Made by a program: the position numbers and the translations under genes. Source: Gaiella occulta (GTDB taxonomy: Bacteria > Actinomycetota > Thermoleophilia > Gaiellales > Gaiellaceae). From it: DNA of 64,000 nucleotides. Shown piece after piece: positions 22,535-44,412 of the stretch. The stretch's first letter is position 1. Each line of letters begins with the position of its first letter. The stretch lies in NCBI RefSeq assembly GCF_003351045.1, contig NZ_QQZY01000003.1, forward strand, positions 1-64,000, in the 5' to 3' direction. The notes under the pieces are model-generated. The model ran no database searches. It was not told the DNA's origin and saw nothing but the letters and a program-made list of their open reading frames with translations.

Positions 22535-24136
22535 TCAGCGACGGCGCCACAGCGAGATCGCTGCGCCGCCGGCGAGCCGCGTCCAGCCGTGCCGCCGCAG
22601 CGCGCGCTCGGCCGCGTCCGCGCATGCGGGAGCGAAGAAGCGGCTCTGCCGGTAGAGGCCGCGGTGCACGGCCACGTAGCGCACGCCGAGCTCCGCGGGC
22701 ACCGTGCCGCGGCCGCACGAGACACCGCGCAGGTCGCGTGCGAGCCGGTCGGCCGCGGGCGGCGCCGTGGTCGAGTAGCCGAACGGCCGCTCGCGCGGGG
22801 ATTGCCGGGCGTAGGCGAGGAAGACGGAGCCGAAGTGGATGTCGGGCCGGAAGACGGGGAGCTCGAGCAGCCGTCCGCCGCCGCGCATCGCGGCGTACGC
22901 GCTGCTCGCCCGGTCGGGCTCGACCGCTCCGAACACCGGCACCTTTAGATCGACCGCCAGCAGCGCCAGCACGGCAGCCGTCACCAGCGCGGCCGGCAGG
23001 CGCAGCTTGTGACACTGTGTCACGAAGTCCAGGGCGAGCGCCACGAGCGCGGCGAGCGCGAGGCAGGCGATCGGCAGCAGGCGCTCCGGGACGCGGGCGA
23101 AGCGCAGCGGGGGGAAGGCGCGCCAGAGCGGCTCGTAGAGAGGAAGGTTGGCGCCGAGCGCGAGCAGGGAGGGGACGGTCGCCGCGAGGCCGAGCAACCA
23201 CGCGAGCCCTCCTTGCCGCCGTGCCGCCCACAGGCCCGCGAGCGCCAGCAGCGGCGTCGCCCAGCCGACGAAGACGAGCTCCTCGATCCCCGCTCCGACG
23301 CCGCGCGTGACGAAGTCGGACAGCTCCGCCGAGTAGCGCTCGACCTGCGCGAACGAGCGCCCGCCGCCCGCGACCGAGCCCTTCACCACCGTCTGCTGCA
23401 CGAGCACGGCGGCGCCGGCGGCGGTGAGCGCCGCGGCAGCGGCCTTCCACCAGACGGCCCGGGGCAGGCGCGCCCATGCGTACCCGAGTGCCAGCACGTC
23501 CGCGCCCATCGCGAGGTGGAGCTGGCCCGAGAGCGGGATCGCCGCCAGTGCGAGCGCTGCCCAGGCGAAGCGCCGCCGCTCGAGCGCGAGCAGGGTCGCC
23601 GGCAGCAGAAACGCGATGAGCCCGAGCAGGTGCCCGCTCGACTGGCCGACGCGGTACGGCGCGAGCGCGAACACGAGCCCGCCGGCGAGCGCTGCCGCCC
23701 GTCCGACCCCGACGGCCCGCAGCCACCAGCAGGTGAGCCCGCCCGCGAGGAGGAACGAGAGCAGCACGATCAGGTCGTAGGCCCACACGTTGCCGACGAG
23801 GTGACGCAACGGCCAGAACGGGATCCCGAGCAGCCAGCCCTGGAGGTTCGGCGCCGCCGCCGCCTCGGGCCGGAACGAGTACGGGTCGGCCCACGGGGCG
23901 GCGCCCCGCTCGAGCTGGTGGCCGGGCAGCCAGAAGGCCCACGCGAGCTGCAGGTGGTCGCCGGCCGCAGCCTCGCCGAAGCCGGCCGAGGGTCGTGCCA
24001 GGTAGTGACCGTCGATCTGTCGGACCGCGGGCCAGGTCGCCCACACGGCGCAGGCGGCGTAGAGGGCTAGGGCGAGGGCGGCGAAGCGGCCGCGACGATC
24101 GCGTCCACGTCGGGCAGATCTGTTCCGAGCATCCAT
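22535..24136 (-). CDS. polytopic membrane protein, GT-C glycosyltransferase-like, 533 aa
   Basis: About 10-12 hydrophobic segments follow a basic N-terminus (MDARNRSARRGRDRRGR). A large loop after the first segment carries acidic and aromatic residues (GDHLQLAWAFWL, WADPYSF), the layout of GT-C or YfhO-like lipid-linked sugar transferases. The C-terminal soluble part (about 415-533) is probably periplasmic. No catalytic motif is certain, so the transferase role is an inference from topology. The ATG at 24136 lies 70 bp inside the 3' end of the peroxiredoxin gene; no later start keeps the first membrane segment, so this long overlap looks real. Confidence 0.65.
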   Translation of the reverse strand: MDARNRSARRGRDRRGRFAALALALYAACAVWATWPAVRQIDGHYLARPSAGFGEAAAGDHLQLAWAFWLPGHQLERGAAPWADPYSFRPEAAAAPNLQGWLLGIPFWPLRHLVGNVWAYDLIVLLSFLLAGGLTCWWLRAVGVGRAAALAGGLVFALAPYRVGQSSGHLLGLIAFLLPATLLALERRRFAWAALALAAIPLSGQLHLAMGADVLALGYAWARLPRAVWWKAAAAALTAAGAAVLVQQTVVKGSVAGGGRSFAQVERYSAELSDFVTRGVGAGIEELVFVGWATPLLALAGLWAARRQGGLAWLLGLAATVPSLLALGANLPLYEPLWRAFPPLRFARVPERLLPIACLALAALVALALDFVTQCHKLRLPAALVTAAVLALLAVDLKVPVFGAVEPDRASSAYAAMRGGGRLLELPVFRPDIHFGSVFLAYARQSPRERPFGYSTTAPPAADRLARDLRGVSCGRGTVPAELGVRYVAVHRGLYRQSRFFAPACADAAERALRRHGWTRLAGGAAISLWRRR

Positions 24137-24534
24137 GCGGCCCTGACCGTATCGCCCGCGATCAGGAAGGCGCTGCGGGCGGCCACGTCGGCGACCTCGA
24201 GCGGCGCGAACGCGACGTCGAAGCCGCGGGCCGCCTCGCCGTTGCCGTCCGACAGCAGCGGCACGTCCTCGACGCCGAGGGTCATCGCCCACGAGTGGTG
24301 CGACCACACGGAGTCGCGCGAGATCCCGTACGGGCGGATGCCCGCCGCCGCCAGGTCGGCGCCCCTGTCACGCAGGAGCAGCAGCTCGTTCGTTCAGGTC
24401 GGCGACCAGTCCCAGAGGTAGAAGCAGAGGAGCGCGTAGCCGTCCCCGGCGATCGCGTCGCGGAGCTGGATCGGCCCCTCGCGGGGCGCCGCCCACACGC
24501 GGGCGTCGGGGACGCGGTCGCCGGGTGCGAGCAC
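24067..24534 (-). CDS. peroxiredoxin with in-frame TGA at the catalytic position (predicted selenoprotein), 155 aa
   Basis: The frame from GTG 24534 to the stop at 24067 is interrupted only by TGA at 24394-24396 (codon 47). The context is DWSPT-TGA-TNELLLLRD. Thioredoxin-fold peroxiredoxins have (T/S)PxCTxEL here, so the TGA stands exactly for the peroxidatic cysteine. Downstream the frame continues 108 codons with a normal AhpC/TSA C-terminal half (GISRDSVWSHHSWA, GFDVAF, SAFLIAGDTVRAAW). A hairpin fitting the bacterial SECIS rules follows the TGA. The protein would reduce peroxides with selenocysteine. A simple TGC-to-TGA mutation is the alternative, but there is no other damage. It has its own leaderless promoter and lies behind an ECF sigma unit. 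Confidence 0.8.
24360..24380 (-). promoter_or_regulatory. candidate bacterial SECIS hairpin
   Basis: On the minus strand UGCUCCUG pairs with CAGGGGCG (8 bp, two G-U pairs) around a CGUGA loop. The loop begins 21 nt after the TGA and has G at its second position. Bacterial SECIS elements are described as stems with a small apical loop 16-37 nt after the UGA, with a G among the first two loop bases; this one fits. The hairpin also encodes peroxiredoxin residues, as bacterial SECIS elements do. Confidence 0.65.
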
Positions 24535-24546: not shown

Positions 24547-25671
24547 CTTCGCGCAGCACCAGCCCTCGATGCGAGGGAACGAGCGCGTGCGAAACTGCGT
24601 CGAGACGTTCGCGACGGCGCGGATGCGGCGGTCGCCGCCGGTGCCTACGAGCACCCACTGGTCGGCGGTCGGCCACGCCACGAGCAGCCAGCGGCCGTCG
24701 GGGGCCACGGCAAGGTCTTCCAGCACACCCGTGCTGCGGAAGAGCAGGCGTCCGCCGCGGAGCATGAACACGTCGCTCTCGGCCCCGCGTACGCGGATCA
24801 CGGCAACCTGGCGCGTCCCCGGGACGAACGCGGCAGCGGAGTCGATCGTGCCGTCCGCCGGGTCATCCCGTGCCACGAGCCGGCCACGGGCGTCGTAGAC
24901 ACGCAGCGCGTGCGGCGCCAGCACGAGCAACCGGGCGCCGTCCGTCGACCACGAGATCGAGGTGACCCGCTCGGCGGGGCCGCGGCTCGCCCGCCACAGC
25001 ACCCGGCCGCTGTCCGCGTCCTGGACGCGCACCTCGCTCGCCGAGGCGTAGGCGAGCTGACGGAGAGGCCCCGGCCGCCAGGCGGCCGGGCCGGTCTCCG
25101 ACGGGGCGAGCAGGCGGTCGCCCGTCCCGTCCCCGGCGACGACGCGCAGGCCGGTGCGATCGACGTAGGCGATGCGCGTGTCGGATCTCGTGCCCGCCCA
25201 GCGCGGGAAGCGGACGCCCGGGCGGGCGAGCGACCAGCGCACGGCGCCGTCGGGCTCGAGCGCCGCGAGCTCGTTCGCCTTCGCGGCCACGACGTAGCGG
25301 CCGAACGGCGACCACGAGGCGGAGCGGTAGCCACCGAGTAGGCGCCGCGAGCCGTCCGGCTGGACGACCCAGGCGCCGGCGTCGGACACGACGAGCAGGC
25401 GCCCTGATGCCGGCAGCGCGAACAGGGCCGGCTGTGCGTGCTCGACGCCCACCGCCGCCCGCACCCGGTCGACGACGGCGCGCCCGGGCGGGCTCGCCAC
25501 GGCGGCGGCGAGCGCGCCTGCGATCACGAGAGCGAGCGCGAGCCGCACCGGGGCGCGTCGCCGCCGGCGCGCCGGCGCGCGGGCGGCGAACGCGGCCCGC
25601 GTGACGGCCCATGCTCGCCTCTCCGCCTCGCGCGCTTGCGGGATCTCGACGCGCTCGAGCTCGTCTCTCAT
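24544..25671 (-). CDS. membrane-anchored beta-propeller protein next to an ECF sigma factor (possible anti-sigma), 375 aa
   Basis: A short cytoplasmic N-terminus of about 45 residues is followed by one membrane segment (PVRLALALVIAGALAAAV). The rest is a large outer domain with repeated WD40/TolB-like blades (SASWSPFGRYVVAA, SISWSTDGARLLVL, DLAVAPDGRWLLVAW). The start ATG overlaps the sigma factor stop (ATGA), the usual place for an anti-sigma factor, but no zinc HxxxCxxC motif is present. It ends in GWCCAK; the vicinal cysteines could be redox-active. A signal-sensing partner of the sigma factor is inferred from position, not shown. Confidence 0.7.
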   Translation of the reverse strand: MRDELERVEIPQAREAERRAWAVTRAAFAARAPARRRRRAPVRLALALVIAGALAAAVASPPGRAVVDRVRAAVGVEHAQPALFALPASGRLLVVSDAGAWVVQPDGSRRLLGGYRSASWSPFGRYVVAAKANELAALEPDGAVRWSLARPGVRFPRWAGTRSDTRIAYVDRTGLRVVAGDGTGDRLLAPSETGPAAWRPGPLRQLAYASASEVRVQDADSGRVLWRASRGPAERVTSISWSTDGARLLVLAPHALRVYDARGRLVARDDPADGTIDSAAAFVPGTRQVAVIRVRGAESDVFMLRGGRLLFRSTGVLEDLAVAPDGRWLLVAWPTADQWVLVGTGGDRRIRAVANVSTQFRTRSFPRIEGWCCAK

Positions 25672-26186
25672 CGCGCGCGCTCCCCGAGCGCGTCGAGACC
25701 GCGCCGCAGGCGCGAGTTGACCGTGCCGCGCGGCAAGCCGAGCAGCTCGGCGATCTCGCCGGGCGTGTAGTCGAGCAGGTGCCGGAGCACGATCACGGCT
25801 CGGTGCTCCGGCGGCAAGGCCGCGATCGCGTCCACGGTCGAGCGGTCGAACCCGTCGGCGGCGTGCTCGGCGGCGGCGAGGGCGTCGTCGAGGCCGGTCT
25901 CGGCGCGCAGCGCGCGGGCTCGCGCGTAGTCGATCGCCCGGTTGACGACGATGCGGTGCAGCCACGGCGCGAACGGGCGGCGGCGGTCGAAGTGGTCGAG
26001 GTTGCGTATCGCGGCCAGGAGCGCCTCCTGCGCGATGTCTTCCGCCGCGGCGGCGTCGTGAACGACGAGGTAGGCGGCGCCGTACGCCCGGCGCCAGTGC
26101 AGGCGGAACAGCGCCTCGAGCGCGGCGACCGATCCCGCCTGCGCGCCGCGGACGAGGGCGCGCTCGTCTCGCCACCGATTCGCCAT
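25668..26186 (-). CDS. ECF-type RNA polymerase sigma factor, 172 aa
   Basis: Region 2 spans about residues 20-90, with the helix IAQEALLAAIRNLDHF and the RPFAPWLHRIVVNRAID -10 recognition part. Region 4 (about 115-170) has LPPEHRAVIVLRHLLD, then a helix-turn-helix in TPGEIAELLGLPRGTVNSRLRRG. The long region 3.1 and other sigma-70 parts are missing, as expected for ECF factors. It is coupled by ATGA to the propeller protein, and the selenoprotein follows, so the regulon may include peroxide defence. A TACAGT hexamer 6 nt before the ATG marks a leaderless start. Confidence 0.92.
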   Translation of the reverse strand: MANRWRDERALVRGAQAGSVAALEALFRLHWRRAYGAAYLVVHDAAAAEDIAQEALLAAIRNLDHFDRRRPFAPWLHRIVVNRAIDYARARALRAETGLDDALAAAEHAADGFDRSTVDAIAALPPEHRAVIVLRHLLDYTPGEIAELLGLPRGTVNSRLRRGLDALGERAR

Positions 26187-38464: not shown

Positions 38465-38536
<72 letters not shown>

Positions 38537-38550
38537 CTCGCGCCGAAGCG

Positions 38551-38556
38551 TAGCGT
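38551..38556 (+). promoter_or_regulatory. -10 hexamer TAGCGT of the ctaG-type gene
   Basis: It ends 7 nt before the GTG at 38564. Confidence 0.5.
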
Positions 38557-38563
38557 TGCGGGC

Positions 38564-39328
38564 GTGAGCCCATCCGACTGGTCGTGGAGCCCGGAGGCGG
38601 TCGCCGGTCTCGTGGTCGCCGGCGCGTATGCCGCGACACGGCGGCGGTTCCCGGCTCCGGCCTGGCGCCGTGCCTGCTTCCTCGCCGGCTGCGTGCTGCT
38701 CGTGCTCGCGTGGGCGTCGCCGCTCGACACGCTCGCGCGCCACTACCTGCTCCTCGCCCACCTGGGCCAGAACGTCGTGCTCGCCGAGTGGGCGCCGCTC
38801 TTGCTCGTGCTCGGGCTCTCACCCGCGCTCGCGGCCGCCGTCGCCCGGCCGCGCACCATGCGCGTCCTCGTGCACCCGTTCGCCGCGCTTCCGCTTTGGC
38901 TCGGCAACTACGCGCTCTGGCACGTTCCCGCGCTCTACGACGAGGCTCTGCGCCGCCCGCACTCGCTGCTGCTGCTCGAGCACCTGCTCTACCTGCTCAC
39001 CGGGCTCCTCCTGTGGTGGCCCGTCTGGCAGGACGCGCCGCGCCGGATCTCGAGCCAGGGGCGCGCCGGCTACGTGTTCGCCGGGTTCGTGCTGTCGGCG
39101 CCGCTCGGCCTCGTGCTCGCGCTCGTGCCGAGCCCGATCTACGACTTCTACGCCGCTGCCCCGGAGCGGCTGTGGGGACTGACGCGCATTGCCGACCAGC
39201 AGTTCGGCGGTATCGTCATGGCATCCGAGCAGTCGATCGTCTTCTTCGCCGTCTTCGCGTACTGGCTCGTGCGCTTCCTCGCCGAGGAGGACAGGCTCGA
39301 CTACGTCGACGCGGTGAGTGGCCGTTGA
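38564..39328 (+). CDS. cytochrome c oxidase assembly factor, CtaG (caa3) type, 254 aa
   Basis: A membrane protein with seven hydrophobic segments and conserved histidines at their ends (HYLLLAHLGQN, LWHVPALYD, LLEHLLYLL). This is the pattern of the caa3_CtaG family needed for CuA/CuB-site assembly of terminal oxidases in Bacillus and actinobacteria. The DQQFGGIVMASEQSIVF segment is also characteristic. No oxidase genes are nearby. The GTG at 38564 gives a short outer N-terminus. An AI-2E-type transporter gene follows downstream with a separate promoter. Confidence 0.9.
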   Translation: MSPSDWSWSPEAVAGLVVAGAYAATRRRFPAPAWRRACFLAGCVLLVLAWASPLDTLARHYLLLAHLGQNVVLAEWAPLLLVLGLSPALAAAVARPRTMRVLVHPFAALPLWLGNYALWHVPALYDEALRRPHSLLLLEHLLYLLTGLLLWWPVWQDAPRRISSQGRAGYVFAGFVLSAPLGLVLALVPSPIYDFYAAAPERLWGLTRIADQQFGGIVMASEQSIVFFAVFAYWLVRFLAEEDRLDYVDAVSGR

Positions 39329-39436
39329 CCCGGTGGGCTCACGATTGCTGCGCCGCGCCGCCGTCCTCCTCGCGACCGGGCTCGCCGCCCGCCGCCGCAC
39401 GCCGGCGCGCCGACCGGGGACGTCCAGCGCCACCCG

Positions 39437-39442
39437 TATGCT
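39437..39442 (+). promoter_or_regulatory. -10 hexamer TATGCT of the AI-2E transporter gene
   Basis: It ends 7 nt before the ATG at 39450. This supports that start rather than the 44-codon longer reading. Confidence 0.55.
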
Positions 39443-39449
39443 CGGCCGC

Positions 39450-40529
39450 ATGAGCGAAGAGCGCCTCGTTCGCCTGCGGCCGCGCGCCGTCCTCGTCGTC
39501 CTCGGGGTGATCCTCGCGTCGGCGGTGGCGCTCGAGGTGCTGTGGGTGACCCGGTCGGTGCTGATATGGGTGCTGATCGCCGTCTTCCTCGCGATGGCGC
39601 TGAATCCCGCCGTCGACTGGCTCGCCGACCGCGGTGTGCGGCGAGGCGTCGCCGTGGGGATCGTGTTCGTCGGCACGATCCTCGCGATCGCGGGCATCGC
39701 GGCCACCTTCGTGCCGACGCTCGTGCGCGAGGTCAACGACCTCGTGAACGCGGTCCCGGGCTACCTCGACGACCTCACCAGGGGCCGTGGCAAGCTCGGC
39801 TTCCTCGAGCGCGACTACCAGATCGTCGAGAAGGTGCGGGCCGCGATCGAGAAGAGCGGCGCCGGCGGCGTGCTCGGCCTCTCCACCACCGCGCTGACGG
39901 TGACGAAGAGCGTCGTCAACGCGGTCGTCGCCGTCGTCACCATCGCCTTCCTCACGCTGTTCATGCTGCTCGAGGGACCGGCCTGGGTGGAGCGCTGCTA
40001 CGGGCTGCTGCCCGAGCCGTCGCAGCCGCGCTGGCGCAAGGTGGGCCGCGACATCTACCGCACGGTCGGCGGCTACGTGACCGGCAACCTCACCATCAGC
40101 CTGATCGCGGGCACCGTCTCGACGGTCGTGCTGCTCGTCCTCGGCGTGCCGTACGCGGTCGCGCTCGGGCTCGTCGTCGCCCTGCTCGACCTGATACCGC
40201 TCGCCGGCGCGACGATCGCCGCGGTGCTCGTCACCACCGTCGGCTTCCTCAACTCGACGACGGCCGGCTTCGTGCTGATCGTGTTCTTCGTCGTCTACCA
40301 GCAGCTCGAGAACCACGTGCTGCAGCCCCTCGTATACGGGCGCACGGTGCAGCTGTCGCCGCTGGTCGTGCTGGTGGCGGTGCTGATGGGAGCCGAGCTG
40401 GCGGGCGTGATCGGGGCGCTCGGGGCGATCCCGATCGCCGGAGCGATCCAGGTGCTCGTGCTGGACTGGCTGGAGGAACGCCGACGCCGGATCGCCGGCC
40501 CGCCGCCGGGCGTCGAGCTTCCCTCGTAG
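39450..40529 (+). CDS. AI-2E family transporter (TqsA/PerM-like), 359 aa
   Basis: Eight membrane segments with the family layout: paired N-terminal helices ending AMALNPAVDWLADRGVRRG, a soluble stretch (about 90-180), then GGYVTGNLTISLIAGTV and the conserved LDLIPLAGATIAAV. NHVLQPLVYGRTVQLSPL follows near the C-terminus. Relatives export autoinducer-2, act as Na+/H+ antiporters, or have unknown substrates, so the exact role is open. An MFS gene follows after 2 bp, probably in the same transcript. Confidence 0.9.
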   Translation: MSEERLVRLRPRAVLVVLGVILASAVALEVLWVTRSVLIWVLIAVFLAMALNPAVDWLADRGVRRGVAVGIVFVGTILAIAGIAATFVPTLVREVNDLVNAVPGYLDDLTRGRGKLGFLERDYQIVEKVRAAIEKSGAGGVLGLSTTALTVTKSVVNAVVAVVTIAFLTLFMLLEGPAWVERCYGLLPEPSQPRWRKVGRDIYRTVGGYVTGNLTISLIAGTVSTVVLLVLGVPYAVALGLVVALLDLIPLAGATIAAVLVTTVGFLNSTTAGFVLIVFFVVYQQLENHVLQPLVYGRTVQLSPLVVLVAVLMGAELAGVIGALGAIPIAGAIQVLVLDWLEERRRRIAGPPPGVELPS

Positions 40530-40531
40530 GC

Positions 40532-41746
40532 GTGCAGACCGGGCCCGAGGCGCGCGGGATCGCGCGCTACCGCATGCTCTTCGAGCACCCCCATGTGCCG
40601 GCGCTCCTCGGCTGGGGCATCGTCGCCCGGCTCCCGCTCGGAATGACCGCGCTGACGTTGATCCTGGTCGTCCGCGCCGGCGGAGCCGGGTACGGCGAGG
40701 CGGGCCTCGTCGCCGCCGCCTACTCCCTCGCGGTCGCCGTCGGGGCGCCGTACGCGGGCCGCCGGGTCGACCGCCGCGGCGCAGCCCCCGTGCTCCGCCT
40801 GCGTCTCGTCGCCTTCCCGGCCCTGCTCTGCCTCGTGGCGCTCGGCGGTGAGCTCGACGCCCCCGTCGTGCTCGTCTCGCTGGCGGCTGCCGCCGCGGGT
40901 CTCGCCCTGCCGCCCGTGTCTTCGGCGCTGCGCTCGATCTGGCCGCGCGTGCTCGGCGACGACGCCGTCCGCACAGCCTACGCTCTCGAGGCGGCCTTGC
41001 AGGAGGTGATCTTCGTCGGCGGCCCGCTGCTCGTCGCCGTCCTCGCCGTCGTCTCGCCGCTGCTCGCCGTCCTCGGCGCCGCAGCGGCGACCCTCGTGGG
41101 CACGCTCATGTTCGTCCGCCTGCCGCCGGTGCGCGCGGCGGGCCCGGCGGAGGAGCACCACGGCTCCCGGCTCGGAGCGCTCTCCTCGCCCGGTGTGCGG
41201 ACGATCGCCCTTCTCGCGCTCTTCCTCGGGCTGGCGTTCGGCTCGGTGGAGATCGCCGCCCCCGCGTTCGCCGAGCTCGAGGGCAACCGGGCCCTCGCCG
41301 GCCTCGCGCTCGCGGGCTTCGCAGCGGGCAGCCTCGCCGGCGGTCTCGCCGCCGGTCTGCGCCCGTCGAGCGACGACCGCCGCCGGCTTCTCGTCGGAGC
41401 GGCGGTGCTCGTCGCAGCGCTCGTCTTGCCGCTGCTGGCGGGCTCGCTCGCGACGCTCACCGCGCTCTTCTTCGTCGCCGGCGTTCCGATCGCCCCGATC
41501 GTCGGGTCGGCCTACGGGCTGATCGGCCGCGTCGCGGCGCCCGGGTCGGTCGCGGAAGCGTTCGCCTGGTTCGGCACGGCCGTCTCCACCGGCTTCGCCG
41601 GCGGCAGCGTCGCCGGCGGCTGGCTCGTCGACCAGCACGGCTGGCGCTCGTCGGTGCTGCTCGGCGTGGGCTTCGCCGGCGCGGGTGCGGCGTTCCTCGC
41701 CGCGCGCCGCGCGACGCTCGCGGGCACCGCGAGGCCTGTGCGCTGA
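40532..41746 (+). CDS. MFS transporter, 404 aa
   Basis: Twelve hydrophobic segments in two halves. The first cytoplasmic loop has YAGRRVDRRGAAPVLR, the usual MFS loop 2-3 signature, and PPVSSALRSIWPRVL and GSAYGLIGRVAAPGS are typical of drug or metabolite exporters of the YfmO/SetA-like kind. The substrate is unknown. The GTG at 40532 follows the AI-2E stop by 2 bp, so translation is probably coupled. The downstream gap to the tRNA-Arg (189 bp) holds nothing recognisable. Confidence 0.88.
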   Translation: MQTGPEARGIARYRMLFEHPHVPALLGWGIVARLPLGMTALTLILVVRAGGAGYGEAGLVAAAYSLAVAVGAPYAGRRVDRRGAAPVLRLRLVAFPALLCLVALGGELDAPVVLVSLAAAAAGLALPPVSSALRSIWPRVLGDDAVRTAYALEAALQEVIFVGGPLLVAVLAVVSPLLAVLGAAAATLVGTLMFVRLPPVRAAGPAEEHHGSRLGALSSPGVRTIALLALFLGLAFGSVEIAAPAFAELEGNRALAGLALAGFAAGSLAGGLAAGLRPSSDDRRRLLVGAAVLVAALVLPLLAGSLATLTALFFVAGVPIAPIVGSAYGLIGRVAAPGSVAEAFAWFGTAVSTGFAGGSVAGGWLVDQHGWRSSVLLGVGFAGAGAAFLAARRATLAGTARPVR

Positions 41747-41935
41747 CGCCCGCCGCGACGAGTGCCGGCACGTGAGCGGGTGCGACGAGGCTGCTGCGGG
41801 AACGTCGCCCGCCGATATGCCCGGCACGGGGCGTGGCGCGGGGTTCGGGCTCGACGGCGGGGAGGCCCGGTACGCCGGCCTCCGGTGCGGCTTCTCCGGC
41901 GAGCCGGTCGCCCGTCCCGGCCGCGGGAGCGGGAG

Positions 41936-42008
41936 TGCGCCCGGGAGGATTCGAACCTCCGACCCGCGGATTAGAAGTCCGCCGCTCTGTCCCCTGAGCT
42001 ACGGGCGC
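41936..42008 (-). tRNA. tRNA-Arg(TCT)
   Basis: The 73-nt minus-strand cloverleaf has acceptor GCGCCCG/CGGGCGC, anticodon stem GCGGA/TCCGC around CTTCTAA (anticodon TCT) and T-loop TTCGAAT. Confidence 0.94.
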
Positions 42009-42115
42009 GCGCACGAAGGGTAATCGGCGTGCGCGGCGGGCGTCGCGAGCCTCCAGGGCTCGTCCCGGCTGCCGCGGCGCGCTTGTGACAGTTTGTTACG
42101 AGGTGCTCGAGCGTC

Positions 42116-43501
42116 TCAGCGCGGCAGATGCAGGCCGAGGCGGCGGGGGAGCGACGCGACGAAGTCCGTGAGGGGATCGGGGCGCCGGCTATCGTCGTAG
42201 GCGGCGTCGCGCCGCACGAGCGCCGCGCGGATCGCGCTGCCGCCGGCCCAGCGCAGCGGCTCGGGCGGCATCAGCTTGCGGTCGGGCTCGACGAGCGCGA
42301 GCCCGGTGGTCGCATCGCGGCGGTCGAGCGCGAGGCGCGCGAGGATCTCGCCCCCGAGGTACGTCGGCCCGACCCCGTTGCCGGTGAAGCCGAAGCCGTG
42401 GTGCACGCGCCCGCGCGAGCCGAAGATCGGCAGGTGCGTGGGCGAGACATCGATCGGGCCGCCCCACGCGTGCGTGACGCGTCGGCCGCGCAGGGCCGGG
42501 AACATGCGCACGAGCCCCTCTCGCGCCGTCTCGACCGCCCGCCGGTCGAGGTCGAGGCGGTCGCTGTGGCGGCCGCCGACGCCCATGCGCCCACCGCCCC
42601 AGCCCAGCGCGATGCGGCCGTCGCGGGTCGTTCGCAGGTAGTGCAGCAGCGTGCGGCAGTCGGCGATCGACTCGCCGCCCGACCAGCCGAGCTCCTCGAT
42701 CACGTCGGGCACGGGCTCCGTGACCACCATGTGGCTCGATGCGACGCCGAGCGCGAGCCGGTAGCCCGCGAAGGACGCGGTCGCGGAGTTGACCGCGAGG
42801 ATCGCCGCGCCCGCCCGCACCGTCGCCCCGCCGCTCGTATGGACGACGGCGTCGCGTTCGACCCGGCGCACGCGCGTGCGCTCGTGCAGCCGCACGCCCG
42901 CGGCGACGACCTCGCGCCGCAGGCCGAGCGACAGGCGCGCCGGATGGACGTTCGCCGAGCTCGGCAGTAGCACGCCGCCGCCGCGGAAGAGCGGGGAGGC
43001 GCAGCGGGCACGCACCTCGTCCGCGCTCAGCGGCACCACCTCCTCCGGGGCGCCGACGTCGCGGCAGGCCGCGACGAGGTCGTCCCAGTCGCCCACCTGC
43101 GCGTCCGACGTGGCGACGAGCATCGTCCCCGACGGCGTGTACCAGGCGTCGACGCCGCGCTCGTCACACCACGCGCCGATGCTCCTGACGGCGCGTTGCG
43201 AAGCCCGGCATACCTCCACGGCGCGTGCGTCGCCGACGCGCTCGCGCAGGATCGGAAGGTCGTCCCACAGCGTCGAGACGAAGCCGCCGTTGCGGCCGCT
43301 CGGCCCGTGGCCGGCGAGCTCCGCCTCGAGCACGATCACGTCGACGGCGGGATCGAGCTGCTTCAGCTGCCATGCCGTCCACAGCCCGAGGTAGCCGCCG
43401 CCGACGACGGCGACGTCGGCGGTCGTGTCCGCCTCGAGCGGCGGGGCCGGCTCGACCGGCCCCGCGTCCTCGAGCCACCAGCCGTAGCGCGTGTGCCGCA
43501 T
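42116..43501 (-). CDS. FAD-dependent oxidoreductase (DAO/glycine oxidase type), 461 aa
   Basis: The FAD loop is VAVVGGGYLGLWTAWQL near residues 30-46. SGRNGGFVS follows, as in gamma-glutamylputrescine oxidase (PuuB/OrdL-like) enzymes. HAWGGPIDVSPTHLP and GFGFTGNGVGPTYLGG form the C-terminal FAD contacts. It would oxidise an amine or N-substituted amino acid, giving hydrogen peroxide; the substrate is not fixed. A TAGGAT hexamer lies 6 nt before the ATG. The repeat pair at 43522-43695 begins 21 bp upstream of the start. Confidence 0.9.
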   Translation of the reverse strand: MRHTRYGWWLEDAGPVEPAPPLEADTTADVAVVGGGYLGLWTAWQLKQLDPAVDVIVLEAELAGHGPSGRNGGFVSTLWDDLPILRERVGDARAVEVCRASQRAVRSIGAWCDERGVDAWYTPSGTMLVATSDAQVGDWDDLVAACRDVGAPEEVVPLSADEVRARCASPLFRGGGVLLPSSANVHPARLSLGLRREVVAAGVRLHERTRVRRVERDAVVHTSGGATVRAGAAILAVNSATASFAGYRLALGVASSHMVVTEPVPDVIEELGWSGGESIADCRTLLHYLRTTRDGRIALGWGGGRMGVGGRHSDRLDLDRRAVETAREGLVRMFPALRGRRVTHAWGGPIDVSPTHLPIFGSRGRVHHGFGFTGNGVGPTYLGGEILARLALDRRDATTGLALVEPDRKLMPPEPLRWAGGSAIRAALVRRDAAYDDSRRPDPLTDFVASLPRRLGLHLPR

Positions 43502-43507
43502 CGGCTG

Positions 43508-43513
43508 ATCCTA
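43508..43513 (-). promoter_or_regulatory. -10 hexamer TAGGAT of the FAD oxidoreductase gene
   Basis: It ends 6 nt before the ATG at 43501. The first repeat copy starts 9 bp further upstream, where a -35 or activator site would be. Confidence 0.55.
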
Positions 43514-43521
43514 CGACGCCA

Positions 43522-43596
43522 CTGCCCGGTCCTGTCTTGGAAGGGAGGTTCCCTGGGAACCGTAGGTTCCCGGTTTCAGGGATTCTCGCGATCGGG
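43522..43596. repeat. 75-bp direct repeat, copy 1
   Basis: 72 of 75 bases match copy 2. The core is GGTTCCC-T-GGGAACC-GTA-GGTTCCC, three alternating complementary heptamers that can form either of two exclusive hairpins. It starts just upstream of the FAD-gene promoter. Confidence 0.85.
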
Positions 43597-43620
43597 TCCG
43601 ATCTCGACCGGCGTTGACAA

Positions 43621-43695
43621 CTGCCCGATTCTGTCTTGGAAGGGAGGTTCCCTGGGAACCGTAGGTTCCCGGCTTCAGGGATTCTCGCGATCGGG
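43621..43695. repeat. 75-bp direct repeat, copy 2
   Basis: Offset by 99 bp from copy 1, with a 24-bp spacer. It is followed by GGGGATCCCC-GTTC-GGGGATCCCC (43693-43716), another nested palindrome, and then by the tRNA-His 3' end. No protein is plausible here. Confidence 0.85.
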
Positions 43696-43734
43696 GATCC
43701 CCGTTCGGGGATCCCCGATCTGCGGACCAATACA

Positions 43735-43807
43735 GGTGGCGGACGGGATTCGAACCCGCGACCACCGGGACCACAACCCGGGGCTCTACCAGCTGAGCTA
43801 CCGCCAC
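43735..43807 (-). tRNA. tRNA-His(GTG)
   Basis: The 73-nt minus-strand cloverleaf has acceptor GTGGCGG/CCGCCAC, anticodon stem CCGGG/CCCGG around TTGTGGT (anticodon GTG), T-loop TTCGAAT and discriminator C. The base before the 5' end is G (43808), which supplies the G-1 identity element. Confidence 0.95.
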
Positions 43808-43842
43808 CACGAGCCGTCACAGGATACCGTGCATGGATCCGC

Positions 43843-43914
43843 GGCCCCGTAGCTCAGCGGATAGAGCGGTGGACTTCGAATCCACGCGCGGAGGTTCGAT
43901 TCCTCCCGGGGCCA
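43843..43914 (+). tRNA. tRNA-Arg(TCG)
   Basis: The 72-nt cloverleaf has acceptor GGCCCCG/CGGGGCC, anticodon stem GTGGA/TCCAC around CTTCGAA (anticodon TCG), T-loop TTCGATT and discriminator A. It is divergent from tRNA-His, 35 bp away. Confidence 0.95.
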
Positions 43915-44054
43915 TAGCCCGGGCCGGCGAGGCTCTCGCCCGGCATGCGCCTGCGGGGGGACGTGGCCCGCCGCATGGGGTTGGGTCGAGCGCGCGAGGT
44001 CGCCGTCCGGCGGCGAGGTCGCGAAGCGCGGTCCGCTCCGTCCGGCGGCGGTCC

Positions 44055-44060
44055 TACCCT
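44055..44060 (+). promoter_or_regulatory. -10 hexamer TACCCT, leaderless start
   Basis: It ends 6 nt before the ATG at 44067. Confidence 0.5.
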
Positions 44061-44066
44061 GGCGGC

Positions 44067-44300
44067 ATGATGCTCGGAATCGTCCTCTTCGGTGCAGTGT
44101 TCCTCGTTGGGCTCGCTCTCGGCACGGTGACGCGCCGGCCGCTCGTGACCGCCTCGATCGTCGTCGCGGCGTTCGTGGCGCTCCTCGTCGCCCAGACGCA
44201 CGAGCCGTCTGCCGGGTTCGCCGCGTTCGCCCTGATCGCAGTCGCGGGCCTCGTCGTCGACTCGGTGCGGGAGACCGTCGGCATCCTGCTCGGCCGCTAG
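44067..44300 (+). CDS. small membrane protein, 77 aa, unknown function
   Basis: Three hydrophobic segments (MLGIVLFGAVFLVGLALG, LVTASIVVAAFVALLVA and FAAFALIAVAGLVV) are separated by short polar turns (TVTRRP, QTHEPS). The ends (DSVRETVGILLGR) are charged. No family was recognised. It lies alone between tRNA-Arg and tRNA-Leu with its own leaderless-type promoter, so it is likely a real gene despite its size. An ATG at 44070 is an equally possible start. Confidence 0.6.
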   Translation: MMLGIVLFGAVFLVGLALGTVTRRPLVTASIVVAAFVALLVAQTHEPSAGFAAFALIAVAGLVVDSVRETVGILLGR

Positions 44301-44328
44301 GTCGATCATCTACGCTCACGGCCACGCC

Positions 44329-44412
44329 GCGGGCGTGGCGGAACTGGTAGACGCGGCGGGTTTAGGTCCCGCTGGGCTTCGGCTCTTGGAGGTTCGAGTC
44401 CTCTCGCCCGCA
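44329..44412 (+). tRNA. tRNA-Leu(TAG)
   Basis: The 84-nt type II tRNA has acceptor GCGGGCG/CGCCCGC, anticodon stem GCGGG/CCCGC around TTTAGGT (anticodon TAG), a long variable arm (TGGGCTTCGGCTC) and T-loop TTCGAGT. The convergent kinase gene overlaps its 3' half on the other strand. Confidence 0.95.

Follow-up and report, generated by a model that had tools for sequence, protein, structure and literature searches.

A predicted selenocysteine-containing peroxiredoxin with a variant active-site motif in Gaiella occulta

Reading frame and gene neighbourhood

The window analysed here comprises 64,000 nucleotides (C3:1-64000) of the draft genome of Gaiella occulta (3.03 Mb, 34 contigs, 97.9 % complete). 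It contains a gene for a predicted selenoperoxiredoxin, flanked by genes for a propeller-like protein, an ECF-type sigma factor and a polytopic membrane protein (Table 1). The selenoperoxiredoxin frame runs from a GTG start (24534..24532) through 46 codons, a TGA and 108 further codons to a TAG stop (24069..24067), with no further stop within. A first-pass annotation of this DNA had described a frame of 155 codons broken solely by this TGA, 108 intact codons behind it and a Leu in place of the resolving-type Cys; all three observations are borne out, and the strand, which had not been given, is the minus strand. The protein reading around the TGA is VLAPGDRVPDARVWAAPREGPIQLRDAIAGDGYALLCFYLWDWSPT-TGA-TNELLLLRDRG..., with the active-site context FYLWDWSPT-TGA-TNELLLL, i.e., Leu occupies position CP+5, where PrxQ-type enzymes carry their resolving Cys. 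An uninterrupted plus-strand frame over the same bases was dismissed as a GC-rich shadow frame without support.

The GTG start is located 9 nt past the stop of the propeller-like gene, which adjoins the selenoperoxiredoxin gene in about 11 relatives. The membrane-protein gene, for which no Pfam match was obtained, does so in more than 30 relatives. The apparent ATG start of its frame (24136) falls within the final 22 codons of the selenoperoxiredoxin gene (24070-24136, minus strand); this overlap aligns in several relatives and suggests coupled translation. No functional link between these neighbours and the predicted selenoperoxiredoxin is claimed.

Table 1 Features of the selenoperoxiredoxin locus (positions within the window)
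Feature	Position	Strand	Remarks
Predicted selenoperoxiredoxin gene	24067..24534	-	155 residues including predicted Sec47; Pfam, AlphaFold and PDB matches
UGA codon for predicted Sec47, peroxidatic position	24394..24396	-	TGA in 62 of 70 homologues, TGC/TGT in 8
Predicted bSECIS stem-loop	24361..24379	-	7-bp stem GCTCCTG/CAGGGGC with one U-G wobble; loop CGUGA
Arg120 codon, conserved active-site Arg of peroxiredoxins	24175..24177	-	invariant in 45 aligned homologues
Downstream polytopic membrane-protein gene	22535..24136	-	overlaps selenoperoxiredoxin 3' end
Upstream gene, C-terminal 365 residues	24544..25641	-	weak WD40 match, propeller-like
ECF-type sigma factor gene, further upstream	25668..26186	-	

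In-frame TGA, SECIS element and selenocysteine machinery

A homologue search covering 151 related genomes yielded 70 extracted sequences. Most genomes of the same family, and some of those elsewhere in the order, encode a close homologue, which nearly always contains exactly one internal TGA. The peroxidatic codon is TGA in 62 of the 70 homologues and TGC or TGT in the other eight, with no other codon observed, so that the in-frame UGA aligns with the Cys of homologues and a chance occurrence of TGA is excluded. Among the TGA carriers are also VAWZ01000104.1 (Actinobacteria bacterium AC_19) and JAOUHF010000005.1 (a Thermoleophilia bacterium). Sequence constraint after the TGA is similar to that before it (dN and dS relative to L031 of 0.25 and 0.60 after the TGA and of 0.32 and 0.78 before it), and the 3' half of the frame is undamaged in close relatives.

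The loop of a candidate bSECIS hairpin is located 21 nt from the UGA. Bacterial SECIS elements are described by a loop of 3-9 nt with a G within its first two positions, a stem of 4-16 bp, a UGA distance of 16-37 nt and an MFE of ≤ -7.5 (PMC13188914); the present hairpin lies within all these constraints (5-nt loop CGUGA, 7-bp stem, 21 nt, -9.9 kcal/mol for the core). It likewise resembles the bSECIS consensus (PMC13188914, Fig. 2) in its 5-nt loop, 7-bp stem, 21-nt spacing and second-position G followed by U. Folding energy was discarded as evidence, since that of the hairpin alone is not distinctive (z -0.74 for a 45-nt folding window and -1.74 for the 27-nt core); in the 45-nt folding window, the minimum-energy fold differs and the SECIS stem is the centroid. 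The case for a functional RNA element is therefore built on conservation and codon choice.

Across homologues, the hairpin reads GCUCCUG-CGUGA-CAGG(A/G)GC. The exact sequence CTCCTGCGTGACAGG is present in 56 of the 62 TGA forms and in none of the eight Cys forms, and none of the latter carries a SECIS. This identity is not explained by the encoded amino acids, since LLRDR is common to nearly all Sec and Cys forms alike. The two Arg codons of the Sec forms are CGT (59 of 62) and AGG (61 of 62), codons that neighbouring genes use for 6.2 % and 1.5 % of their Arg, respectively. In Cys forms, CGC and CGG stand at the same place, apart from one instance of AGG. Thus, the SECIS appears to freeze two rare Arg codons (CGT and AGG) in the Sec forms. 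Within the stem, five sequences have C-G instead of G-C as the outer pair, and six have a U-G wobble in place of a U-A pair. The Rfam model SECIS_1 (RF00031) matches neither in this genome nor in control genomes, so that its silence carries no information. A SECIS covariance model, which is specific to the selenoperoxiredoxin gene, detected no second convincing element in the genome (next best E 0.09).

The genes for selenocysteine synthesis and insertion, which the first-pass annotation had presumed to reside outside the window, are all encoded in the same genome: selA (C1:307019-308293, 516 bits), selB (C1:308379, 330 bits) and the gene for tRNA-Sec with anticodon UCA (selC; C1:311646, 64.6 bits; tRNA-SeC(tca) according to ARAGORN) are clustered within 5 kb, and a Cys form of SelD is encoded at C1:188930 (356 bits). 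Inside the window, sub-cut-off matches of the tRNA-Sec model at 38466-44411 probably reflect a cluster of ordinary tRNA genes. The gene for the alpha subunit of formate dehydrogenase (FdhA; C3:72533-74401), 8.5 kb beyond the right edge of the window, contains a single in-frame TGA at its active site (SCNRT-TGA-HAPSVVGL), followed by a hairpin whose GGUCUG loop differs from CGUGA at the selenoperoxiredoxin gene and which the covariance model does not list. Judged from its sequence, fdhA is a second selenoprotein gene of G. occulta. With the machinery present and an in-frame TGA in fdhA, the Sec trait appears to be in use in this genome.

Of the genomes that carry the TGA, 20 are at least 92 % complete, and each of these contains selA or selB. 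Matches to selA/selB are missing from 15 of the 59 TGA-bearing family genomes, and all 15 assemblies are at most 91 % complete. The sel genes are found in 44 of 59 family genomes with the TGA form versus 9 of 26 without a member (Fisher p 0.0007), with incompleteness affecting both counts. Weak selB matches (about E 1e-57) in genomes devoid of a strong match probably represent EF-Tu and were discounted, given that the second selB match of the G. occulta genome looks alike. Codon conservation, SECIS and sel genes together support the initial prediction of a selenoprotein with TGA at the codon of the peroxidatic Cys.

Fold and active site

With U entered as C, the predicted protein matches the Pfam family AhpC-TSA (PF00578) with E 8.8e-18 and 64.9 bits (cut-off 26). 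The top PDB matches of its AlphaFold model (pLDDT 96.9, pTM 0.91) are all peroxiredoxins: Mycobacterium tuberculosis BcpB (5epf; Z 21.3, 28 % identity), M. tuberculosis AhpE (1xxu; Z 20.0, 26 % identity) and Prx5-type proteins (about Z 20-22); further PrxQ/BCP/AhpE-like comparators are those of Burkholderia (5enu) and Aeropyrum (2cx3). Since VIA rows at most 1 Z apart count as tied, the modelled protein is assigned only to the short PrxQ/AhpE/Prx5-like monomers and to nothing narrower. It shares monomer length, active-site layout and fold (VIA Z 19-22) with PrxQ/BCP and AhpE-like enzymes. However, the latter possess Cys and Pro, and PrxQ often a resolving Cys at CP+5, whereas the window protein would have Sec, Leu and Leu at these positions.

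The active-site residues Ser44, Sec47 (predicted) and Arg120 are retained, the last being the conserved active-site Arg of peroxiredoxins. The residue at CP-3 is T or S in all 62 Sec members. The motif PxxxT/SxxC is incomplete at CP-7, where Pro is replaced by Leu40; among the 62 Sec members, this position is Leu in 59, Ile in one and Pro in two. The Pro of PxxxTxxC has been called strictly conserved (PMC5719442), and PxxxTxxU highly conserved (PMC13188914). Given the Pfam match and the fold, membership in AhpC/TSA is not in doubt and the motif is a variant, but peroxidase activity is not guaranteed with this Pro missing.

No Cys other than the one replaced by Sec is present in 47 of the 62 Sec homologues, rendering an internal resolving thiol impossible in these. 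The single Cys of the window protein, Cys37, is located at CP-10 and shared by 5 of the 62. This lack of a conserved resolving Cys strengthens the 1-Sec mechanism proposed at the outset, and the enzyme is best read, from its sequence, as a 1-Sec peroxiredoxin.

Distribution, proposed function and rival readings

Phylogenetic analysis reveals at least four changes between Sec and Cys on well-supported branches, with the Cys outgroup counted. The Cys form of genome G030 is nested among Sec forms as sister to the Sec form of G017 (support 100/99), as are the Cys forms of one genus with three members (100/100). Genome G100 possesses an intact Sec copy and a Cys-type copy (L091 and L088); the latter, nested among Sec forms and with stop codons nearby, is possibly a decaying duplicate. 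For two further Cys genomes of the same genus (G001 and G002), the tree gives no Sec/Cys direction for either.

More distant peroxiredoxins in the phylum sample mostly contain Cys. Thirteen distant members (L120-L132) from other actinobacterial orders and classes carry one TGA at the same peroxidatic codon, in motifs including FYVHDFSPVU, FYTHDFSPVU, FFYPLDWTPVU and FYVFDFGSVU. Their CP-7 residue is mostly V, T or L, with Pro in some; Pro is found in 13 of 13 sampled distant Cys forms. These predicted Sec sites indicate that Sec use in the peroxiredoxin superfamily is distributed far more widely than the lineage of the window. Two divergent peroxiredoxins of the same family (L133 and L134, from G010 and G039) have a TGA in an enlarged motif (FTGSxEGG-TGA-QxQL), the insertion altering the usual T/S-x-x-U spacing. 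Within the branch, Cys members either kept Leu or have Pro at CP-7. A tree-based comparison of Pro loss with Sec gain involves five independent pairs only, Pro differing in 0-2 of them, which is too few for significance. One may speculate that selenium relaxes the peroxiredoxin site, such that the nearly universal Pro and all other Cys were lost here and in several other actinobacterial Sec-peroxiredoxins, giving rise to a distinct catalytic subclass L/V/TxxxSxxU; this is a tentative idea, which we regard as possible though rather doubtful.

Selenoperoxiredoxins are an established kind, as exemplified by that of Eubacterium acidaminophilum (Sohling et al. 2001, as cited in PMC13188914). With the known bacterial Sec-peroxiredoxins (PF00578, TxxU) the present branch shares the AhpC/TSA fold, the peroxidatic UGA, T/S at position -3, a downstream bSECIS and Cys homologues. 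It differs from them in scoring far under the cut-off of the NCBI PrxU equivalog (NF040737; 30.8 bits versus 270), in Leu for Pro (59 of 62) and in usually lacking any other Cys. Searches of the open-licence literature found no account of Thermoleophilia using Sec. The branch is well-supported and apparently undescribed, and it is common within a single actinobacterial family, which a relative's record places in the class Thermoleophilia.

The gene almost certainly encodes a functional 1-Sec peroxiredoxin, as far as sequence evidence can tell. A ribosome translating it encounters the UGA at codon 47 and, 21 nt on, the CGUGA hairpin loop. SelB would bind the hairpin and bring Sec-tRNA(Sec) to the UGA, and insertion of Sec47 would yield the 155-residue protein. 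The Sec47 selenolate, presumably positioned at the N-terminus of helix 2 together with Ser44 and Arg120, may attack H2O2 or an organic peroxide, forming a selenenic acid. Reduction of the latter would require an external thiol, which might be that of a thioredoxin-type protein or of a small molecule, rather than an internal bond to a resolving Cys, since most members lack a further Cys or Sec.

The TGA could also be a damaging mutation of a TGC/TGT Cys codon, as in a pseudogene, or a sequencing error, for one substitution turns TGC into TGA and the genome is a draft of 34 contigs. Against this stand the same TGA in 62 homologues spread over many genomes that were assembled independently of each other, a sequence behind it that is as constrained as that in front, and a frozen SECIS present only where the TGA is; conservation already argues so strongly against damage or error that this reading is considered refuted, with hardly any probability left. 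Still less credible is a variant genetic code with UGA read as Trp or Cys, for which the analysis yielded no supporting evidence: among homologues the codon is replaced by Cys alone, a complete Sec machinery is present, and several members of this same peroxiredoxin family end at an ordinary TGA stop.

Sec insertion generally competes with termination, and the UGA might act mainly as a stop or regulated switch, releasing mostly a 46-residue peptide and allowing the full-length protein only when selenium is plentiful. Since such a peptide would be without the catalytic residue and the greater part of the fold, and constraint spans the whole frame, this is very improbable; moreover, it concerns the efficiency rather than the status of a selenoprotein. 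More weight, while still unlikely, is given to a selenoprotein of peroxiredoxin fold with a main task other than peroxide reduction, e.g., thiol oxidation, persulfide handling or redox sensing. The ‘strictly conserved’ Pro (PMC5719442) is Leu in 59 of the 62 Sec members, a resolving Cys is lacking and an ECF sigma factor gene is located upstream in the window, but the retained Ser44, predicted Sec47 and Arg120, T/S at -3 in 62 of 62 and the standard fold favour the 1-Sec peroxiredoxin.

Gene callers treating TGA as stop would truncate this gene in every carrier genome. That close relatives have either the Sec form with a frozen SECIS or the Cys form with the SECIS erased represents a natural experiment on selenocysteine gain and loss. 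The Pro-less active site, as predicted, is the departure from the textbook in this branch, raising the question of whether a residue strictly conserved in Cys-peroxiredoxins is dispensable with selenium. Aerobic bacteria rarely retain selenoproteins according to a 2026 review (PMC13188914), and the lifestyle of this lineage would bear on their rarity in aerobes.
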